Assembly: GCF_035207705.1 (NCBI RefSeq)
Contig: NZ_CP128187.1
Location: 620,001-684,000 of the forward strand
Reading direction: 5' to 3'
Source: Maribacter sp. BPC-D8
GTDB taxonomy: Bacteria; Bacteroidota; Bacteroidia; Flavobacteriales; Flavobacteriaceae
DNA length: 64,000 bases
Under the pieces are notes generated by a model. It had not been told where the DNA came from, ran no database searches, and saw only the letters and a program-made list of their open reading frames with translations. The position numbers and the translations under genes are program-made. This document shows positions 1-8,701 of the stretch, piece by piece. Numbering within the stretch: the first letter of the stretch is position 1; each line of letters begins with the position of its first letter.

Positions 1-323
1 TCTTCTTTAATCTGAGATAATATTATTCTAGGCTCATAAATTCAAAAAACAGATTCTTGAGCTTTTCTTATTCAATTAATCTGCTATTTATCTAGGCAAT
101 ACAGAAACGTAAGTTTCATCAATAGATAGCGGTTTAGCTAAGTTCTTAGCTGATTACCAAAAAGGAAAATAAGTCGTAAGATTTAAGCTATTGATATAGA
201 AAACCATTACTGAAAAGTGATGGTTTTTTTGTTTTATATTAGTGCTTCTAAAAAAGGGATATATGTAATTGTACACATATCCCTACGTTGTAACAAATTT
301 TGAAGAACCATTTATAACTAAAT
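1..323. other. Intergenic lead-in with dispersed repeats, terminator and cassette boundary
   Basis: I see no gene here. Bases 1-67 closely match 16475-16541 (element Y), and bases 141-243 closely match 14474-14576 (element X). A terminator lies at 202-230. Bases 256-283 form an imperfect 11-bp hairpin (arms GGGATATATGT and ACACATATCCC) just before the first cassette boundary, GTTGTAACAA at 287-296. Confidence 0.7.
202..230 (+). terminator. Rho-independent terminator in element X
   Basis: Arms ACCATTAC and GTGATGGT (one G-T pair) enclose a TGAAAA loop and are followed by a run of T. The same hairpin recurs at 14533-14563 in the second copy of element X. Confidence 0.7.
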
Positions 324-977
324 ATGATTGAATTTTTAAAAGGAGGAAAAACTCTTAAAGGAGTTATAATGGGAATGACGATTGATGAAGCAAATTCAAT
401 ATTGGGCGAGCCGACGAATATCAGCGGCGAGAAAGAATATGGGTATCTACATTACGGAGCATATCGTTACGGATTCGCCGATAAAATAATTAACGAAATG
501 GCTATTGAATTTAAATTTCTTGACAAACCAATTATGTTTAAGAATTTAGAATGGAAAAAACATGACATTTCACTCTTTGAAGATTTCAAAATAAAATCCA
601 AATGCAAAATTCATAGAATAATCGGACTCATAAATCACCTTCAATTGAATTGGAAAGCAGAAAATGGAATTGACAAAGATAGCTTTATAATGAAAATTGC
701 TAATGGACCATATATTGTTTGCGACCTATATGATGGAATTGTTGATAAAATAACTATCGTTGACGGACACCAAGCTGGGTAATAAAACTTGTTACAACAC
801 AACCTATAAACAATACGGGCTTAGGCAATAAACGCTAAGGTCTGCGTATATTTATATTGTCGCAAAATCTTTGGGATTTTTCTTTGACAGAAAAATAAAA
901 CTAAACAATAAGCTTTAGCTTCGTGCGCAGACGGAAACGAAAAGTTTCCTTGCCTCCGCACTACGCTTAGCTCAGGC
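287..977 (+). mobile_element. Integron-like gene cassette 1
   Basis: The unit begins with GTTGTAACAA (287-296), carries one ORF (324-782) and ends in junction repeat A. The ten bases TTGTTACAAC at 789-798 are the exact reverse complement of the start. Allowing one mismatch the match extends to 14 of 15. This cassette-specific pairing is what excision and integration at attC-like sites would give, since the first bases of a cassette complete its own recombination site. The GTT fits integron core sites but the following bases do not fit RRRY, so the system is only attC-like. No recombinase is visible in the window. Confidence 0.6.
324..782 (+). CDS. Hypothetical protein in cassette 1
   Basis: A 152-residue soluble protein with no signal peptide or membrane segment. 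The N-terminal stretch around residues 15-30 (MGMTIDEANSILGEP) resembles the short helix-turn opening of small bacterial proteins that begin with a GMxxxEVxxILG-like motif, but I cannot assign a family. An alternative start at 369 has a better ribosome binding site (AAAGGAG) and would begin MGMTID. The stop codon lies six bases before the complementary end of the cassette, a very tight fit. It is the only gene of its unit. Function unknown; immunity or stress cargo is possible but unsupported. Confidence 0.6.
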   Translation: MIEFLKGGKTLKGVIMGMTIDEANSILGEPTNISGEKEYGYLHYGAYRYGFADKIINEMAIEFKFLDKPIMFKNLEWKKHDISLFEDFKIKSKCKIHRIIGLINHLQLNWKAENGIDKDSFIMKIANGPYIVCDLYDGIVDKITIVDGHQAG

Positions 978-985
978 GTTGGCAT
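789..985 (+). repeat. Cassette junction repeat A (attC-like)
   Basis: A structured non-coding repeat of about 197 bases between cassettes 1 and 2. It opens with TTGTTACAAC, complementary to the start of cassette 1, and closes with GTTGGCAT, the start of cassette 2. Inside are the shared core GGTCTGCGTATATTTAT (839-855), pairing arms GTCTGCG (840-846) and CGCAGAC (926-932), and a perfect hairpin GGAAAC-GAAAA-GTTTCC (933-949). It aligns with copies B and C along almost its whole length. Confidence 0.7.
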
Positions 986-1783
986 TAATACTGAAAAAAC
1001 ATATGAAACATTTAACTATCCTTCTTTTTTTAATATTTATAAGTTGTAAAAACGAGCCTAAAACCAAAACGGAGACGAAAACGGAGACGAAAACGGAAAC
1101 GGAAATGGATATTGAAAATGGAATTGACAAATCTGTTTATGAAATGTGGAATAATTTTACGGAATCAAATCCTGAATTTAAAAATGAAGAACTCCCAAAT
1201 ACTGAATTTTTTGACAATAGTGAAGAAGATTATCATCGATATGCAGACCTAATTGTTGCCGGAAAAAAGAGGGCAAGTTCTGGTTTATATATTTGGTATA
1301 AAGAAGCAAATGTTGATTTACCAAAAAAAGGGGCAAAACTTATTGTAACGGATTTTAACGGAAAAGCGCGAGCAATAATTGAGAATACAAAGGTAGACAC
1401 AATACCATTTAAGAACATTTCCAAGGAATATGCTGAATTGGATATGGGAACTAATATTAAACCACTCGAAGAATGGAAAAAAGCACATTGGGAAATTTTT
1501 GCGAACTCATTAGAACAAAATGGACAAAAAGCGACAGATGAAATTCTAGTGGTGTGTGAATGGTTTGAAACAATCTGGACGGAAAAGTACTAATGCCAAC
1601 AAAACCTATAAACAATACGGGCTTAGATTTTAAACGCCAAGGTCTGAGTATATTTAGAATGTCGCGAAATCTTTCGGATTTCGCTTTGACACAAAAAAAG
1701 AAAAAACAAAACCAAAAGATTTCGCTACGTGCTTGGCGGAAAGCAAACGCTAGTTTGCTCCCGTACTGTTCATAGCTAAATCG
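978..1783 (+). mobile_element. Integron-like gene cassette 2
   Basis: The unit starts GTTGGCATTA at 978 and its repeat opens with TAATGCCAAC, ending at 1600. These are exact reverse complements over 10 bases and 14 of 15 with one mismatch at position 11, the same pattern as cassette 1 but with a different sequence. The ORF (1003-1593) starts 25 bases after the boundary, and its stop codon overlaps the complementary block. Confidence 0.6.
1003..1593 (+). CDS. ASCH-domain lipoprotein
   Basis: A 196-residue protein starting at the ATG at 1003; an upstream TTG at 979 lies inside the junction repeat and is unlikely. Residues 1-15 form a lipoprotein signal (LTILLFLIFISC), then comes a Lys-Thr-Glu linker with a fourfold KTET-like repeat. 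From about residue 45 it matches the ASCH fold (YqfB-like): the block ADLIVAGKKRASSGLYIWY, then a turn with PKKGAKLIVTD, ENTKVDTIPF, and the C-terminal LVVCEWFETIW. ASCH proteins are RNA-binding-like or act as amidohydrolases on acylated nucleosides, normally in the cytosol. Membrane anchoring outside the cytosol is therefore odd. The substrate is unknown. Confidence 0.8.
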   Translation: MKHLTILLFLIFISCKNEPKTKTETKTETKTETEMDIENGIDKSVYEMWNNFTESNPEFKNEELPNTEFFDNSEEDYHRYADLIVAGKKRASSGLYIWYKEANVDLPKKGAKLIVTDFNGKARAIIENTKVDTIPFKNISKEYAELDMGTNIKPLEEWKKAHWEIFANSLEQNGQKATDEILVVCEWFETIWTEKY

Positions 1784-1795
1784 TTGTGCGTCATA
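1593..1795 (+). repeat. Cassette junction repeat B (attC-like)
   Basis: Second full copy of the junction repeat. It opens with ATGCCAAC (1593-1600), complementary to the start of cassette 2, and closes with GTTGTGCGTCAT (1784-1795), the start of cassette 3. It carries the core GGTCTGAGTATATTTA (1641-1656), a hairpin with arms GCGAAATC and GATTTCGC, and a hairpin AGCAAAC-GCTA-GTTTGCT. The stem sequences differ from copy A while the stem positions are kept, which looks like structural conservation. Confidence 0.7.
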
Positions 1796-2485
1796 TTGAG
1801 CAACTAACAATATTGAATTAAAATTATACAAATGAGAAACACATTATTCTATATTCTAATGATAATTGGAATGAATTCTACGCTTTCTGCTCAAGACATT
1901 AATCTTGACGAATCGGAATTACAATCCATTTTATGCCAGCAATGGGAAATTGAATATGCACTTATGGGAGGGATGAAGATTGGACAACTACCGGGTGCTG
2001 CTGATTTTGATTTTGATTTTCACTCTGATGGCAAATATGACATAATTAGTGAAAATGAAGATAATAAAAGTGGTAGATGGATTTATGATATTGAAAATAA
2101 ATATGTTGAGCTTTCTATTGAAGAAAAAACAACTTCTCGAATTAAATTTATTGACACTAATAAACTGATTCTTATTCTTGTTTCTGGACAAAATGACCCA
2201 CCTGGATTACCTAGTATGGAAGTGCATTTTAAGCCAATGTAAACAGAAAATACGCCGCACAACAAAGCCTAAACGTAATGCGGATTTTAGGGCTAAACCG
2301 AAAGGTCTGTGTATATTTATGAAGTCGCTAATCCCGATAGCTATCGGGAATGGATTTAGCTTTGAACAATAAAAAATAAAACTAAACCCGCCCGTACCGA
2401 TAAGGCACGTTCGGGCGGGCAATAAGCTTTAGCTTTGTTCGCAGACGGAAACGAAAAGTTTTCTTGCCTCCGCAATACGCTTAGC
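1784..2485 (+). mobile_element. Integron-like gene cassette 3
   Basis: The unit starts GTTGTGCGTCAT at 1784. Its repeat opens with the complementary CGCACAAC at 2256-2263 (8 exact, 13 of 15 overall). It holds one ORF at 1832-2242 whose stop lies 13 bases before that block. The far end of its repeat no longer shows a GTT boundary. Confidence 0.55.
1832..2242 (+). CDS. Secreted lipocalin-like hypothetical protein
   Basis: A 136-residue protein with a signal peptide of about 20 residues ending at SAQ (NSTLSAQ), so it is probably exported to the periplasm. The remainder has the layout of small lipocalin-like proteins of Bacteroidota: a CQQWEIEYALMGG strand early on, a DFDFHSDGKYDI strand, GRWIYDIENKYVELS, and a final strand. 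No catalytic motif is visible. It is the single gene of cassette 3, starting 48 bases after the GTT boundary. Function unknown. Confidence 0.6.
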   Translation: MRNTLFYILMIIGMNSTLSAQDINLDESELQSILCQQWEIEYALMGGMKIGQLPGAADFDFDFHSDGKYDIISENEDNKSGRWIYDIENKYVELSIEEKTTSRIKFIDTNKLILILVSGQNDPPGLPSMEVHFKPM

Positions 2486-2490
2486 ACAAC
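2249..2490 (+). repeat. Cassette junction repeat C with inserted palindromes
   Basis: Third copy of the junction repeat, longer than A and B. It has the core GGTCTGTGTATATTTAT (2304-2320), arms GTCTGTG and CGCAGAC, and a GGAAACGAAAAGTTTTC hairpin. It holds two extra palindromes: CCCGATAGCTATCGGG near 2332-2347, and a 33-base insert at 2388-2420 with arms CCGCCCG and CGGGCGG. The second lies exactly between ACTAAAC and AATAAGCTTTAG, which are adjacent in copy A. The closing GTT is missing (GCACAACCGAAG in place of GCTCAGGCGTTG), so the right boundary is damaged. Confidence 0.65.
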
Positions 2491-2512: not shown

Positions 2513-2785
2513 ATGGAAATAATACACCAATTAATCAATTCTGATTCCGAAAAAATAATAATTTTAACTTTGGATGGAGAAAATCTGATTTCTGAAACTG
2601 GGAAAAAAGATAAACTTAGAACAACAACAAAAGTATTTCCAAGCAATGAAGATGCTTTAAAAAACTTCCATAAAAAAGAATGGGCAGCCTTGAAAAAAGG
2701 ATTTATTTTAATAAATACTAACGTTAAATTAGGACAACCAACTTTGACCCGTCCTGAAATATGTTTACAAAAAACAAATAACTAA
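2513..2785 (+). CDS. WGR-like fragment or small protein
   Basis: A 90-residue protein. Residues 10-65 (KIIILTLDGENL ... ETGKKDKLRTTTKVFPSNEDALKNFHKKEWAALKKGFIL) resemble a WGR domain, a small nucleic-acid-associated module found in bacterial MolR-type and PARP proteins. Such domains usually start longer proteins, so this may be an N-terminal piece of a truncated gene: the tail after residue 70 looks unrelated. It follows damaged repeat C and has no matching right-hand repeat, so it marks the worn end of the array. The assignment is tentative. Confidence 0.5.
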   Translation: MEIIHQLINSDSEKIIILTLDGENLISETGKKDKLRTTTKVFPSNEDALKNFHKKEWAALKKGFILINTNVKLGQPTLTRPEICLQKTNN

Positions 2786-4385: not shown

Positions 4386-5861
4386 ATGAATATATATATA
4401 TTAAGGATATTAATTTTATCAACTATTTTTAGTAATGCTCAAGAAAAAATAGAATTCAATAAGAATCCTTATACGAATGAAAATCACTTTATAATTAAAT
4501 TACAAGAACAAGGAAAAAAAAGCTCTAAAATATTTTATGATGTTAAAGAGAAAAAAAATAAGTACGGATATGAAGAACCAGTTGTAACCGTAAATAATTT
4601 TAAAAGTATTATCGTCGAAAAAGAAAATGACTCCTATAACCTAACACTTCAGCTAGATGCAGATGGTGTATTAGATTTAGATCTTGCAACGTCGGCAAAT
4701 GTTAAGAAAGTTTACGCTTTTGTATTTAATGATACTATTTATCAAACCAAAAAGTTTTCATCGCCTTCATTTCATGGACAGTTTTTAATAAAAAATATAT
4801 CTAAAAAACAAAAAAATAATATTGTAAACTTCTACAAAAGCTTACCAAACTTTGAACTACAGTTGAAATTATATCATGCTATTGATCATGCTGAAAAATC
4901 AAAAATAGATTCATTATTGAATGTTGGTGCTTTGTTAACAGAAATAAACTATAAGATTGGATATAATCAACAAAATGGCGCTTTTTATAGTGCTTTTTGT
5001 CGCAGAAGGGGTACTTATTTTAAGTATCAAGACGTGGCCGATTATCTTTTAAGTAAAGGATTTATTCCAAAAGCCATAACAATCGATCAGGCCATTGCTT
5101 ATAGGGATGTCAAATACATAAACAACTATTTTAATACTATAGAAAATAAAGAGGAAAGATGCAATGCGTTAAGAAGAAAACTATGGAATGTTTTTAGATA
5201 TGGAAATGCCTCTGTAATAAGAGAATTCGAAATTTTAGGATTAAATATTGAGACAGAAAAACATAGAGGAAAAAGTCTGCTTGCTAATGCCTCAATTAGA
5301 AGTGAGGCATCTATGGTAAGTTATTTGTTAAATAAAAAAATAGCATATGATGAAGCCACATTACTGATCTATTCTTTAGTTTATAATAAAATGGATGCTA
5401 CAGATGCTTTATTAGAAGGGGGGCTAAACATCAACACCTTGCTTGATAATAAAAATAACATAGCACAAAAAATGATTGCATTTGAATATATACATAAAGA
5501 TTCTTATAATAATGCTTCAGTAAGAAAAATACCACTGATGATAGAGAGGGGCTTTAACCCAAACACTATAGGAAATGAAGGGAAAACACTATTGCATACT
5601 ATCGCTAGTAATACAAATGAAATTATGGGTTTTAGAGTAAAAGGAAAGTCTTCATTTACATATGATGAATCAGAATGCTTAAAACAAATTTTAGAAGTAG
5701 TAAAAGTTATAAAAAGTAATGGAGGCGATTTTAACAAAAAAGATGATAAAGGTTTTACAGCATATGAATACGTATTAAAGCAAATACATGAATTAAAGTC
5801 AAGAGATATAAATTTAAAAAAAGAAGATAAAGCATTACTCTTAAACGCTTTTAAAAACTAA
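4386..5861 (+). CDS. Exported ankyrin-repeat-like protein
   Basis: A 491-residue protein with a short signal peptide (MNIYILRILILSTIFSNA, cleavage before QEK). Residues 30-130 form an unrecognised beta-rich domain. From about residue 150 onward come degenerate ankyrin-type helix pairs, clearest in DATDALLEGGLNINTLLD, LMIERGFNPNTIGNEGKTLLH and VIKSNGGDFNKKDDKGFTAYEY. It starts five bases after the LRR gene, so the two are likely co-transcribed. Both have repeat architectures used for protein binding. The binding partner is unknown. Confidence 0.7.
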   Translation: MNIYILRILILSTIFSNAQEKIEFNKNPYTNENHFIIKLQEQGKKSSKIFYDVKEKKNKYGYEEPVVTVNNFKSIIVEKENDSYNLTLQLDADGVLDLDLATSANVKKVYAFVFNDTIYQTKKFSSPSFHGQFLIKNISKKQKNNIVNFYKSLPNFELQLKLYHAIDHAEKSKIDSLLNVGALLTEINYKIGYNQQNGAFYSAFCRRRGTYFKYQDVADYLLSKGFIPKAITIDQAIAYRDVKYINNYFNTIENKEERCNALRRKLWNVFRYGNASVIREFEILGLNIETEKHRGKSLLANASIRSEASMVSYLLNKKIAYDEATLLIYSLVYNKMDATDALLEGGLNINTLLDNKNNIAQKMIAFEYIHKDSYNNASVRKIPLMIERGFNPNTIGNEGKTLLHTIASNTNEIMGFRVKGKSSFTYDESECLKQILEVVKVIKSNGGDFNKKDDKGFTAYEYVLKQIHELKSRDINLKKEDKALLLNAFKN

Positions 5862-7823: not shown

Positions 7824-8701
7824 AGCCTTCCGACAAGAGAGTTCGTGTAAAGTATCTTATCAAAACGTTTGTAGTTCCAATCATCCGTGCCTGTAAAGTT
7901 GTAGGCCTGAGTAGATCGATGTGGTATTACCAAAGTAAGAAAGATGATAGCGAGGTTATTGATAAGCTTACAGCATTAGCGGAATCATACCCAACTAGAG
8001 GTTTTGATGAATATTATTACAAGATCCGTCGTGAAGGCTTAAAATGGAACAGAAAACGAGTGTTACGTGTGTACCGCGAGATGAAACTCTGTCTACGGCG
8101 TAAACATAAAAAGCGTTTGGTTAAACGTATAAAACAACCTTTGGAAACACCTTTAACACTAAATGAGTGCTGGAGTATGGATTTTATGAGCGATGCGCTT
8201 ACCGATGGCAGAAAGTTGCGTGTATTTAATGTTTTGGATGATTGTAACAGGGAAGCTCTGGTAATAGATGCAGGACTTTCTTATCCGGCGAGAGCCGTAA
8301 TTGAAACATTGGATCATTTAAAAGATGAAATAGGAACACCTAAATACGTGAGGTGTGATAATGGTCCGGAGTTTACCTCTAAGACTTTTATGAACTGGTG
8401 TAAAAAGAATTTTATAGAAATAAAATATACACAACCGGGAAAGCCAATGCAAAACGGATATATAGAACGATTTAATCTTTTTTTTAGAGAATACATATTG
8501 GATGCCTATTATTTCAATGACATTTATCAGCTTCAAAAGATAAGCGATAACTGGCGGGAGGATTATAATTTTAACCATCCGCATAAATCATTAGGTAATA
8601 TATCACCTAAAGAATTCAAGCCCAGATTTGATGAAGAATTTAAATTCTTCATCAAATCTGACCTAAATAATAATTATTTATCGAATTTAGAGGTGTCCTA
8701 A
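7811..8701 (+). CDS. IS3-family transposase OrfB (DDE domain)
   Basis: Read in the -1 frame from the slippery A-AAA-AAG at 7811; the first ATG in frame is at 7919. It contains the HTH_21 region (TALAESYPTRGFDEYYYKIR), then an rve integrase core with the DDE residues in WSMDFMSD, RCDNGPEFTS and NGYIERFN, and ends with FNHPHKSLGNISPKEFKP. The domain looks complete. Normal production needs frameshifting from orfA, which is interrupted here. No change in the catalytic triad is visible. Confidence 0.85.
   Translation, partial: KKVLKPSDKRVRVKYLIKTFVVPIIRACKVVGLSRSMWYYQSKKDDSEVIDKLTALAESYPTRGFDEYYYKIRREGLKWNRKRVLRVYREMKLCLRRKHKKRLVKRIKQPLETPLTLNECWSMDFMSDALTDGRKLRVFNVLDDCNREALVIDAGLSYPARAVIETLDHLKDEIGTPKYVRCDNGPEFTSKTFMNWCKKNFIEIKYTQPGKPMQNGYIERFNLFFREYILDAYYFNDIYQLQKISDNWREDYNFNHPHKSLGNISPKEFKPRFDEEFKFFIKSDLNNNYLSNLEVS

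Follow-up and report, generated by a model that had tools for sequence, protein, structure and literature searches.

What are the three one-gene units that stand head to tail at the start of a 64,000-nucleotide stretch of the Maribacter sp. BPC-D8 chromosome (NZ_CP128187.1, positions 620,001 to 684,000; the whole stretch is called the window here), and what kind of recombinase could have put them there? An earlier note on this DNA had described units that begin with GTT plus a variable block, end with the reverse complement of their own block, and arose by insertion at a GTT point as in integrons. The three starts and their complementary ends were read directly at the places given, except that the third unit begins at 1783 and not at 1784; its block and its end at 2256 are as described. 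The units are very probably gene cassettes of an integron-type system built on an integrase other than IntI. Insertion at GTT is supported by duplicated cassettes with GTT borders and by recombinase-headed arrays in relatives, but the recombinase is not the canonical IntI. The system is best described as one that works like an integron and is not to be filed within the IntI family: the IntI insert I2, the GTTRRRY core and the extrahelical bases of attC were all looked for and not found, and for this reason it is not classed as an IntI-family member.

The pairing of each unit's two ends can be judged across the 4.78-Mb chromosome, because the repeat of about 200 bases that follows each unit, rather than occurring once with fixed flanks, is present about 50 times in several arrays. 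There are 48 matches at E ≤ 1, and a profile found 54 copies, some of them partial, in the regions fetched around these matches; clusters lie near 620, 724-732, 764, 1359, 1510, 1674-1713, 2762-2779, 2884 and 3501-3520 kb. Thirty-one intervals separate successive repeat copies on one strand. In them, positions 4 to 10 of the start agree with the reverse-complemented end at 150 of 217 bases, whereas 10,000 shuffles of the ends among units gave 80.9 on average and never more than 117. All ten end bases agree in 11 of the 31 intervals and eight or more of the first ten in 20; the remaining 11, which agree at only 2 to 7 bases, may contain missed repeat copies or insertions. Window cassette 1 lies outside these intervals, since no repeat precedes it, and its ends agree at ten bases of ten. 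The mismatch at position 11 that had been pointed out in the window is general: all 31 starts have A there, and 27 of the 31 ends, once reverse-complemented, have G. An exact 10-bp end match (GTTN7 ... N7'AAC) plus A/G at position 11 was used as a signature; within the window it marks 287-798 and 978-1600, plus two unrelated places, one per strand, in the other 61.4 kb. The longest open reading frame (ORF) is on the top strand in all 20 cassettes of this genome with eight or more end matches, and the genes of many cassettes stop near the end block.

The signature yielded 223 unique units (before removal of duplicates, 8 from this genome, 92 from stretches around integrases in relatives and 133 from stretches found by the repeat pattern). 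They share the repeat and carry 120 distinct N7 blocks, in accordance with the earlier description of different end blocks around a common repeat. The R box consensus of integrons is RYYYAAC/GTTRRRY. GTT and AAC are constant here by selection of the units, C precedes GTT in 222 of 223, and only 15 of 223 starts fit GTTRRRY, so the core was rightly said to differ; it can be written as GTTR with a largely free N6. Between AAC and GTT the repeat measures about 117 or about 180 nt. The claim that the pairing is longer than in attC does not survive: known attC sites have R''/R' self-pairing of 9-11 nt, a range that makes the length normal, and most have C before GTT (PMC2727003; this and the other papers are cited from excerpts).

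A genome search for a tyrosine recombinase beside an array, which the earlier note had suggested, gave none that fits in this genome and did give them in relatives. A scan of the genus revealed tyrosine recombinases of approximately 375-390 aa directly before repeats, and 40 integrase stretches (21 from the genus, 19 from other genera) were assembled, with 43 integrase rows that represent 42 loci (L108 and L218 are the identical locus). Of the first 20 genus stretches, 16 contain copies according to the repeat profile, and in each of these the copies follow the integrase and share its direction. A signature scan, which uses no repeat homology, found 178 distinct starts in the 40 integrase stretches versus 6.8 in shuffled sequence, and 307 versus 11.4 in 119 repeat-pattern stretches; among the matches listed, signature pairs occur even where the integrase is just 35-40% identical. 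A signature pair lies downstream in 37 of 43 rows (the first pair of L270 resembles chance), and the first start is within 200 bp of the integrase in 28 of 43. The distance between the integrase stop and the first start was examined in the first 20 genus stretches: it is 41-46 bp in 11 of them, 77 and 82 bp in two others, and 881 bp or more in five, where cassettes lacking an exact pair may fill the space; in two no start was found. Of 29 array heads (the window among them, and the one locus of L108 and L218 entered twice), 14 have a palindrome with at least 11 of 12 complementary positions before the first start; such a palindrome was seen in 4 of 580 shuffles and before 2 of 184 cassette starts that are not heads. 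Both the palindrome and its position beside the integrase fit a putative attI-like role.

At E ≤ 1e-60, 69 of 149 relatives and 71 of 296 phylum-sample genomes have an integrase match, counts that are upper bounds for the cassette system because many weaker matches cover the core and catalytic domains alone. The repeat pattern occurs in at least 119 stretches of named genomes, which among the matches listed belong to Flavobacteriaceae or near relatives, plus one metagenome-assembled genome of Saprospiraceae. IMG/VR contains 13 pattern stretches, in none of which an integrase was confirmed; 60 phage records have a partial integrase match, with 34-37% identity among the 15 matches listed, and none of them covers 80% of the query. 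Before the integrase in 32 of 43 rows, and divergent from it, is a Cys-rich zinc-finger-like ORF of about 123 aa, at 70-163 bp measured to the match edge. Its Pfam matches are all below cut-off, and it is a possible regulator or partner of the integrase.

The integrases have complete active-site motifs in 40 of 43 cases, according to a pattern search. The spacing from the catalytic K to HxxRH is 64-65 residues in the 38 of 43 rows in which it is measurable (five are not), compared with 106 in 14 of 15 IntI (one not measurable, and one of the 14 being a fusion that was left out of the tree) and 70 and 72 in two Xer proteins. I2 is absent from the new integrases where measurable. Upstream of the core-binding motif are 86-220 residues (median 118), or about 100 extra N-terminal residues, where a scan of five proteins gave no Pfam match above cut-off. 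A tree of 59 rows groups 14 IntI in a single clade (100/100), with the 43 new rows around it and XerC/XerD apart; the tree included two Xer rows, both long-branched, and no XerA. L276 falls outside the other new rows, which leaves the new integrases as either a clade or a grade. A C-terminal motif is common to the new integrases and IntI, and not to Xer. By sequence, the recombinase appears nearer to IntI than to XerC/D in this small tree; its kinship to IntI is not settled. A structure model is weak (four sequences, mean pLDDT 72.9, most of the N-terminal 100 residues at 34-66), and its matches to XerA, IntI4 and XerH in PDB indicate a tyrosine recombinase and nothing more.

Computed folds of the 223 units compared a circle form (own end, own repeat and own start) with an array form that has the next start instead. 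The bottom strand of the circle form is more stable in 215 of 223 units and the own-start form is more stable than the next-start form in 220 of 223, in a test that is partly circular as the units were chosen by exact 10-bp ends and A/G at position 11. A cleaner test, in which only AAC and GTT of the R boxes were retained, favors the bottom strand in 89 of 111 representatives. G.T accounts for 134 of 1329 terminal-stem pairs on the bottom strand of these representatives versus 19 of 1073 on the top; at position 11, A is opposite C on the top strand and T forms a wobble with G on the bottom. The predicted bottom-strand hairpin of about 150-210 nt has an R stem and an L stem separated by an asymmetric internal loop, a layout like that of attC. 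Single-base bulges number 7 on the R''-L'' arm versus 15 on the other arm.

Signs of cassette movement are found in relatives. In one stretch of genome G007 (L274), a 600-bp cassette is present in four copies without a mismatch, one at the attI and three at attC sites; left of its GTT, the attI copy has no base in common with the others. Another genome (L224) contains four copies of a 336-bp cassette that differ by up to 19 mismatches and whose identity stops just past the next GTT. On the reverse strand of L274, the copies at 2432 and 3151 and those at 4553 and 9693 have identical ORFs with different attC repeats, a pattern that reads as exchange of the repeat without the gene. A 298-aa tyrosine recombinase is present in G007 at eight places with equal scores, which gives it the look of a mobile element. 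Co-variation of the two end blocks, a check named in the earlier note, was examined with cassette 2, for which 11 other genus loci were fetched from 13 matches. The orthologue in G015 (L303), 77% identical over the last 486 bases, has an intact pair with the same single-base change at both ends, GCCATTA compared with GGCATTA at both ends in the window. The locus in G012 (L304) has degenerate ends, 8 of 10 by eye, and nine loci without a fitting pair look like non-cassette homologues. With only one locus having an intact pair, the co-variation test rests on one orthologue and the wide survey of units. Cassette 1 was found in 1 of 36 genomes across the genus, its own copy alone.

The process that would account for these arrays would begin with cutting by the recombinase at GTT. 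The excised cassette would be a circle, in which the attC could refold because the cassette's own R'' and R' meet, and the circle would then enter either the palindromic attI or a further attC, with the folded bottom strand as the probable substrate.

The closest alternative is an ordinary integron, with a canonical IntI platform (the sedentary chromosomal type) that has lost its integrase to become a cluster of attC sites lacking integron integrase (CALIN). The resemblance is extensive: both systems have an integrase, an attI-like site and tandem one-gene cassettes in one orientation; in both, the R''/R' pairing belongs to the cassette and C precedes GTT, within a layout R''-L''-...-L'-R'; and the R-internal loop-L hairpin with a favored bottom strand, here from computed folds, matches the layout of attC (PMC2727003). 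Canonical IntI also exceeds its cut-off in 84 of the 296 phylum-sample genomes. In the genus, however, IntI exceeds the TIGR02249 (integron integrase) cut-off in 0 of 36 genomes, the starts rarely fit GTTRRRY, and the spacing of 64-65 rather than 106 residues, the roughly 100 extra N-terminal residues and the divergent Cys-rich gene all set the new integrase apart. Further differences are the GTTR + N6 core with nearly constant A/C at position 11, a palindromic attI just behind a co-oriented integrase, and the repeat of about 117 or about 180 nt. The signature occurs 4 times in 373,696 bases of canonical stretches versus 177 times in 959,496 bases of the new type, and the A11/G11 rule was not seen in canonical IntI pairs, of which 10 overlapping pairs in 12 stretches are too few for a strong contrast. 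A remnant of a canonical integron is thus quite unlikely.

Modules moved by host XerC/XerD are very unlikely, even though these are the sole close tyrosine recombinases left in this genome and attI is palindromic, as Xer-type sites can be. Xer/dif modules have a short double-strand dif-type site at each end, and dif sites are about 28 bp, whereas the cassette sites are hairpins of about 150-210 nt; moreover, array heads in relatives have their own integrase, on a tree branch separate from XerC/D (two long Xer rows). The unit ends are inverted repeats, and the window does encode a transposase-type gene with rve domains (7919-8701), which could suggest transposons or units like miniature inverted-repeat transposable elements whose end blocks are the terminal inverted repeats of a transposase. 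Such repeats would not be expected to vary by unit as the N7 blocks do, or the units to follow an integrase as a tandem series with a single orientation, or duplicated units to stop at GTT without carrying their flanks along, and this explanation is scarcely probable. Pairing that acts at the level of RNA, as a terminator or by pairing of transcript ends, would suit genes that end near the end block, as many do in this genome, but the end and its own start are far apart in an array, and since the mismatches are A.C in the sense strand but G.T in its complement, it is the sense RNA that folds worse; a role in RNA rather than recombination is extremely improbable.

Several observations weigh against an integron-type system. 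Recombination and circles are deduced from sequence patterns. The integrases lack I2, which is reported to be needed (PMC7790495). Of five integrases, four match the archaeal XerA-type model NF040815 with a higher score than TIGR02249, the best sequence match in PDB is the archaeal Xer 4a8e (E 3.8e-42, with IntI4 at 1.7e-35), and XerA leads the fold search by E-value, with IntI4 following. The integrase (E ≤ 1e-60) is missing from G000 and 8 of the 35 other genus genomes, though repeats are present in 34 of 36; 4 of the first 20 genus integrase stretches have no repeat by the profile, and 6 of 43 rows have no signature pair, some of them on account of a contig end. Two of the four L274 copies bear a different repeat from five bases after AAC. 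Besides the partial circularity of the circle-form test, the bottom-strand effect shrinks once the selected parts of the R boxes are removed, and the extrahelical-base pattern of attC was not found in minimum-energy folds of the 223 units.

A broader proposal, plausible but tentative, is that these arrays represent a second class of integron, without I2 and widespread in Bacteroidota, that recombines folded single-strand cassettes. It would have solved the strand problem through its N-terminal domain, the Cys-rich partner and the fixed G.T wobble as a strand mark, and its relation to IntI integrons would be that of a sister or a precursor; genes such as tet(X) would have been mobilized from it. 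The I2 helix has been held to be necessary for single-strand cassette recombination and unique to IntI (PMC7790495), a claim that an I2-less integrase family with attC-like arrays makes directly testable; the new family may show an alternative to I2 or a state before I2. Some new integrases may already have been sorted into an integron-like subgroup for which the insert is described in the excerpted text as "not fully conserved" but essential (PMC8138268), their cassettes unnoticed. In Bacteroidetes proper, the standard finder first gave integrases without cassettes and then one complete integron, in Salinibacter ruber, as excerpted from PMC9024848; a reservoir of cassettes in Bacteroidetes would have been missed by such a finder. 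Integrons and intI have been reported in the Bacteroidetes/Chlorobi group (PMC2426708, PMC8618304), and the excerpt of PMC9864904 mentions integrons in a reference title only. No published description of this cassette system was found among the papers listed by full-text searches of open-licence PubMed Central (PMC).

Two named entities resemble the new integrase. NF040815 ("site-specific tyrosine recombinase/integron integrase") has a 220-bit cut-off that four of five integrases exceed (231.6, 237, 225.5 and 221.2), but the fifth scores 212.9, and the family is named for archaeal XerA and is silent on cassettes. The "xerD" beside tet(X3) on Acinetobacter plasmids is 56% identical to integrase residues 143-375 and lies directly before tet(X3) in the same direction (L295, 2916-5117; L296, 5001-7073), but it spans just 62% of the integrase. 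Inspected by eye, the tet(X3) unit shows borders of the new type, with end blocks that agree only partly; the script reported no pair. A recombinase named xerD was reported with tet(X14), with no integron found beside it according to the excerpt (PMC7473080), and xerD has been described beside tet(X), catB11 and aadS in Bacteroidota and Acinetobacter (PMC7473080, PMC11194056). The integron-type reading, if true, suggests an origin for these xerD-tet(X) neighborhoods.

The window itself has no integrase, nor is there one at E ≤ 1e-60 in the rest of its genome. At the head of its array (Table 1), the alignment places ..TTTTATATTAG of the window beside CCTTTAGATTAG of L210, and the distance of exactly 44 bp from stop codon to first start recurs in 9 of 43 integrase rows (L108 and L218, one locus, are among these), so that the TAG at 240..242 seems to be the remaining trace of an integrase gene, with a scar of about ten bases. 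A blastn search with the window head gave a match of 86% over 57 nt to a single integrase locus, L212. Two further arrays of the same chromosome, with heads at 1,674,226 (+) and 732,038 (-), likewise start with a palindrome and have no integrase. A strict search of the regions fetched from this genome for a palindrome before GTT gave five places, two of them array heads and three chance-like, and did not flag the imperfect site of the window. The simplest reading is that the integrase was lost and the arrays were left behind, the window being an integrase-less remnant with attI and three cassettes; because the scar is only about ten bases, this loss can be inferred and no more. No convincing remnants of the integrase or the Cys-rich gene were found in the fetched regions of this genome, and none of the genes upstream of the window was found at the integrase platforms of relatives, which makes a deletion not demonstrable by synteny. 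XerC, XerD and tyrosine recombinases of 412 and 439 aa, all encoded in this genome, were considered as movers of the cassettes and rejected, the latter two being unlike the integrase.

Table 1. Features of the array head and cassettes (window coordinates, except for the last line, which refers to locus L212)
Feature	Position	Strand	Details
TAG	240..242	+	44 bp before first cassette; integrase-stop position in relatives
attI-like palindrome	255..284		Arms AGGGATATATGT / ACACATATCCCT; 11/12 complementary; ends two bases before first GTT
Cassette 1	287..798	+	GTTGTAACAA at 287-296, TTGTTACAAC at 789-798; read directly
Cassette 1 ORF	324-782		152 aa; no Pfam match
attC-like repeat of cassette 1	799..977	+
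Cassette 2	978..1600	+	GTTGGCATTA at 978-987, TAATGCCAAC at 1591-1600; read directly
Cassette 2 ORF	1003-1593		ASCH-domain lipoprotein-like
attC-like repeat of cassette 2	1601..1782	+
Cassette 3	1783..2263	+	GTTGTGCG starts at 1783, CGCACAAC at 2256-2263; block agrees 9/10
Cassette 3 ORF	1832-2242		136 aa; no Pfam match
attC-like repeat of cassette 3	2264..2489	+	Enlarged by short inserted hairpins
Cys-rich divergent ORF (example)	L212:2267-2638	-

No GTT follows the third repeat, which is the end of the array. As to the cargoes, the earlier assignment of ASCH to the second is supported by Pfam, but the third, called lipocalin-like, had no Pfam match at E ≤ 0.01, and neither did the first. An Rfam search gave nothing meaningful (best E 0.14). 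Small G+C-rich palindromes containing GGCACGTTCGGGCGGGC lie inside the third repeat of the window and several other repeats of this genome, which they lengthen, and constitute a miniature repeat nested in some attC repeats. The sequence TTGACCCGTCCTGAAATATGT is found just inside three cassette starts of this chromosome (near 730,630, 1,510,626 and 2,779,036) and once in the window (2744-2764), and looks like the end of an insertion sequence element that inserts repeatedly at cassette starts.

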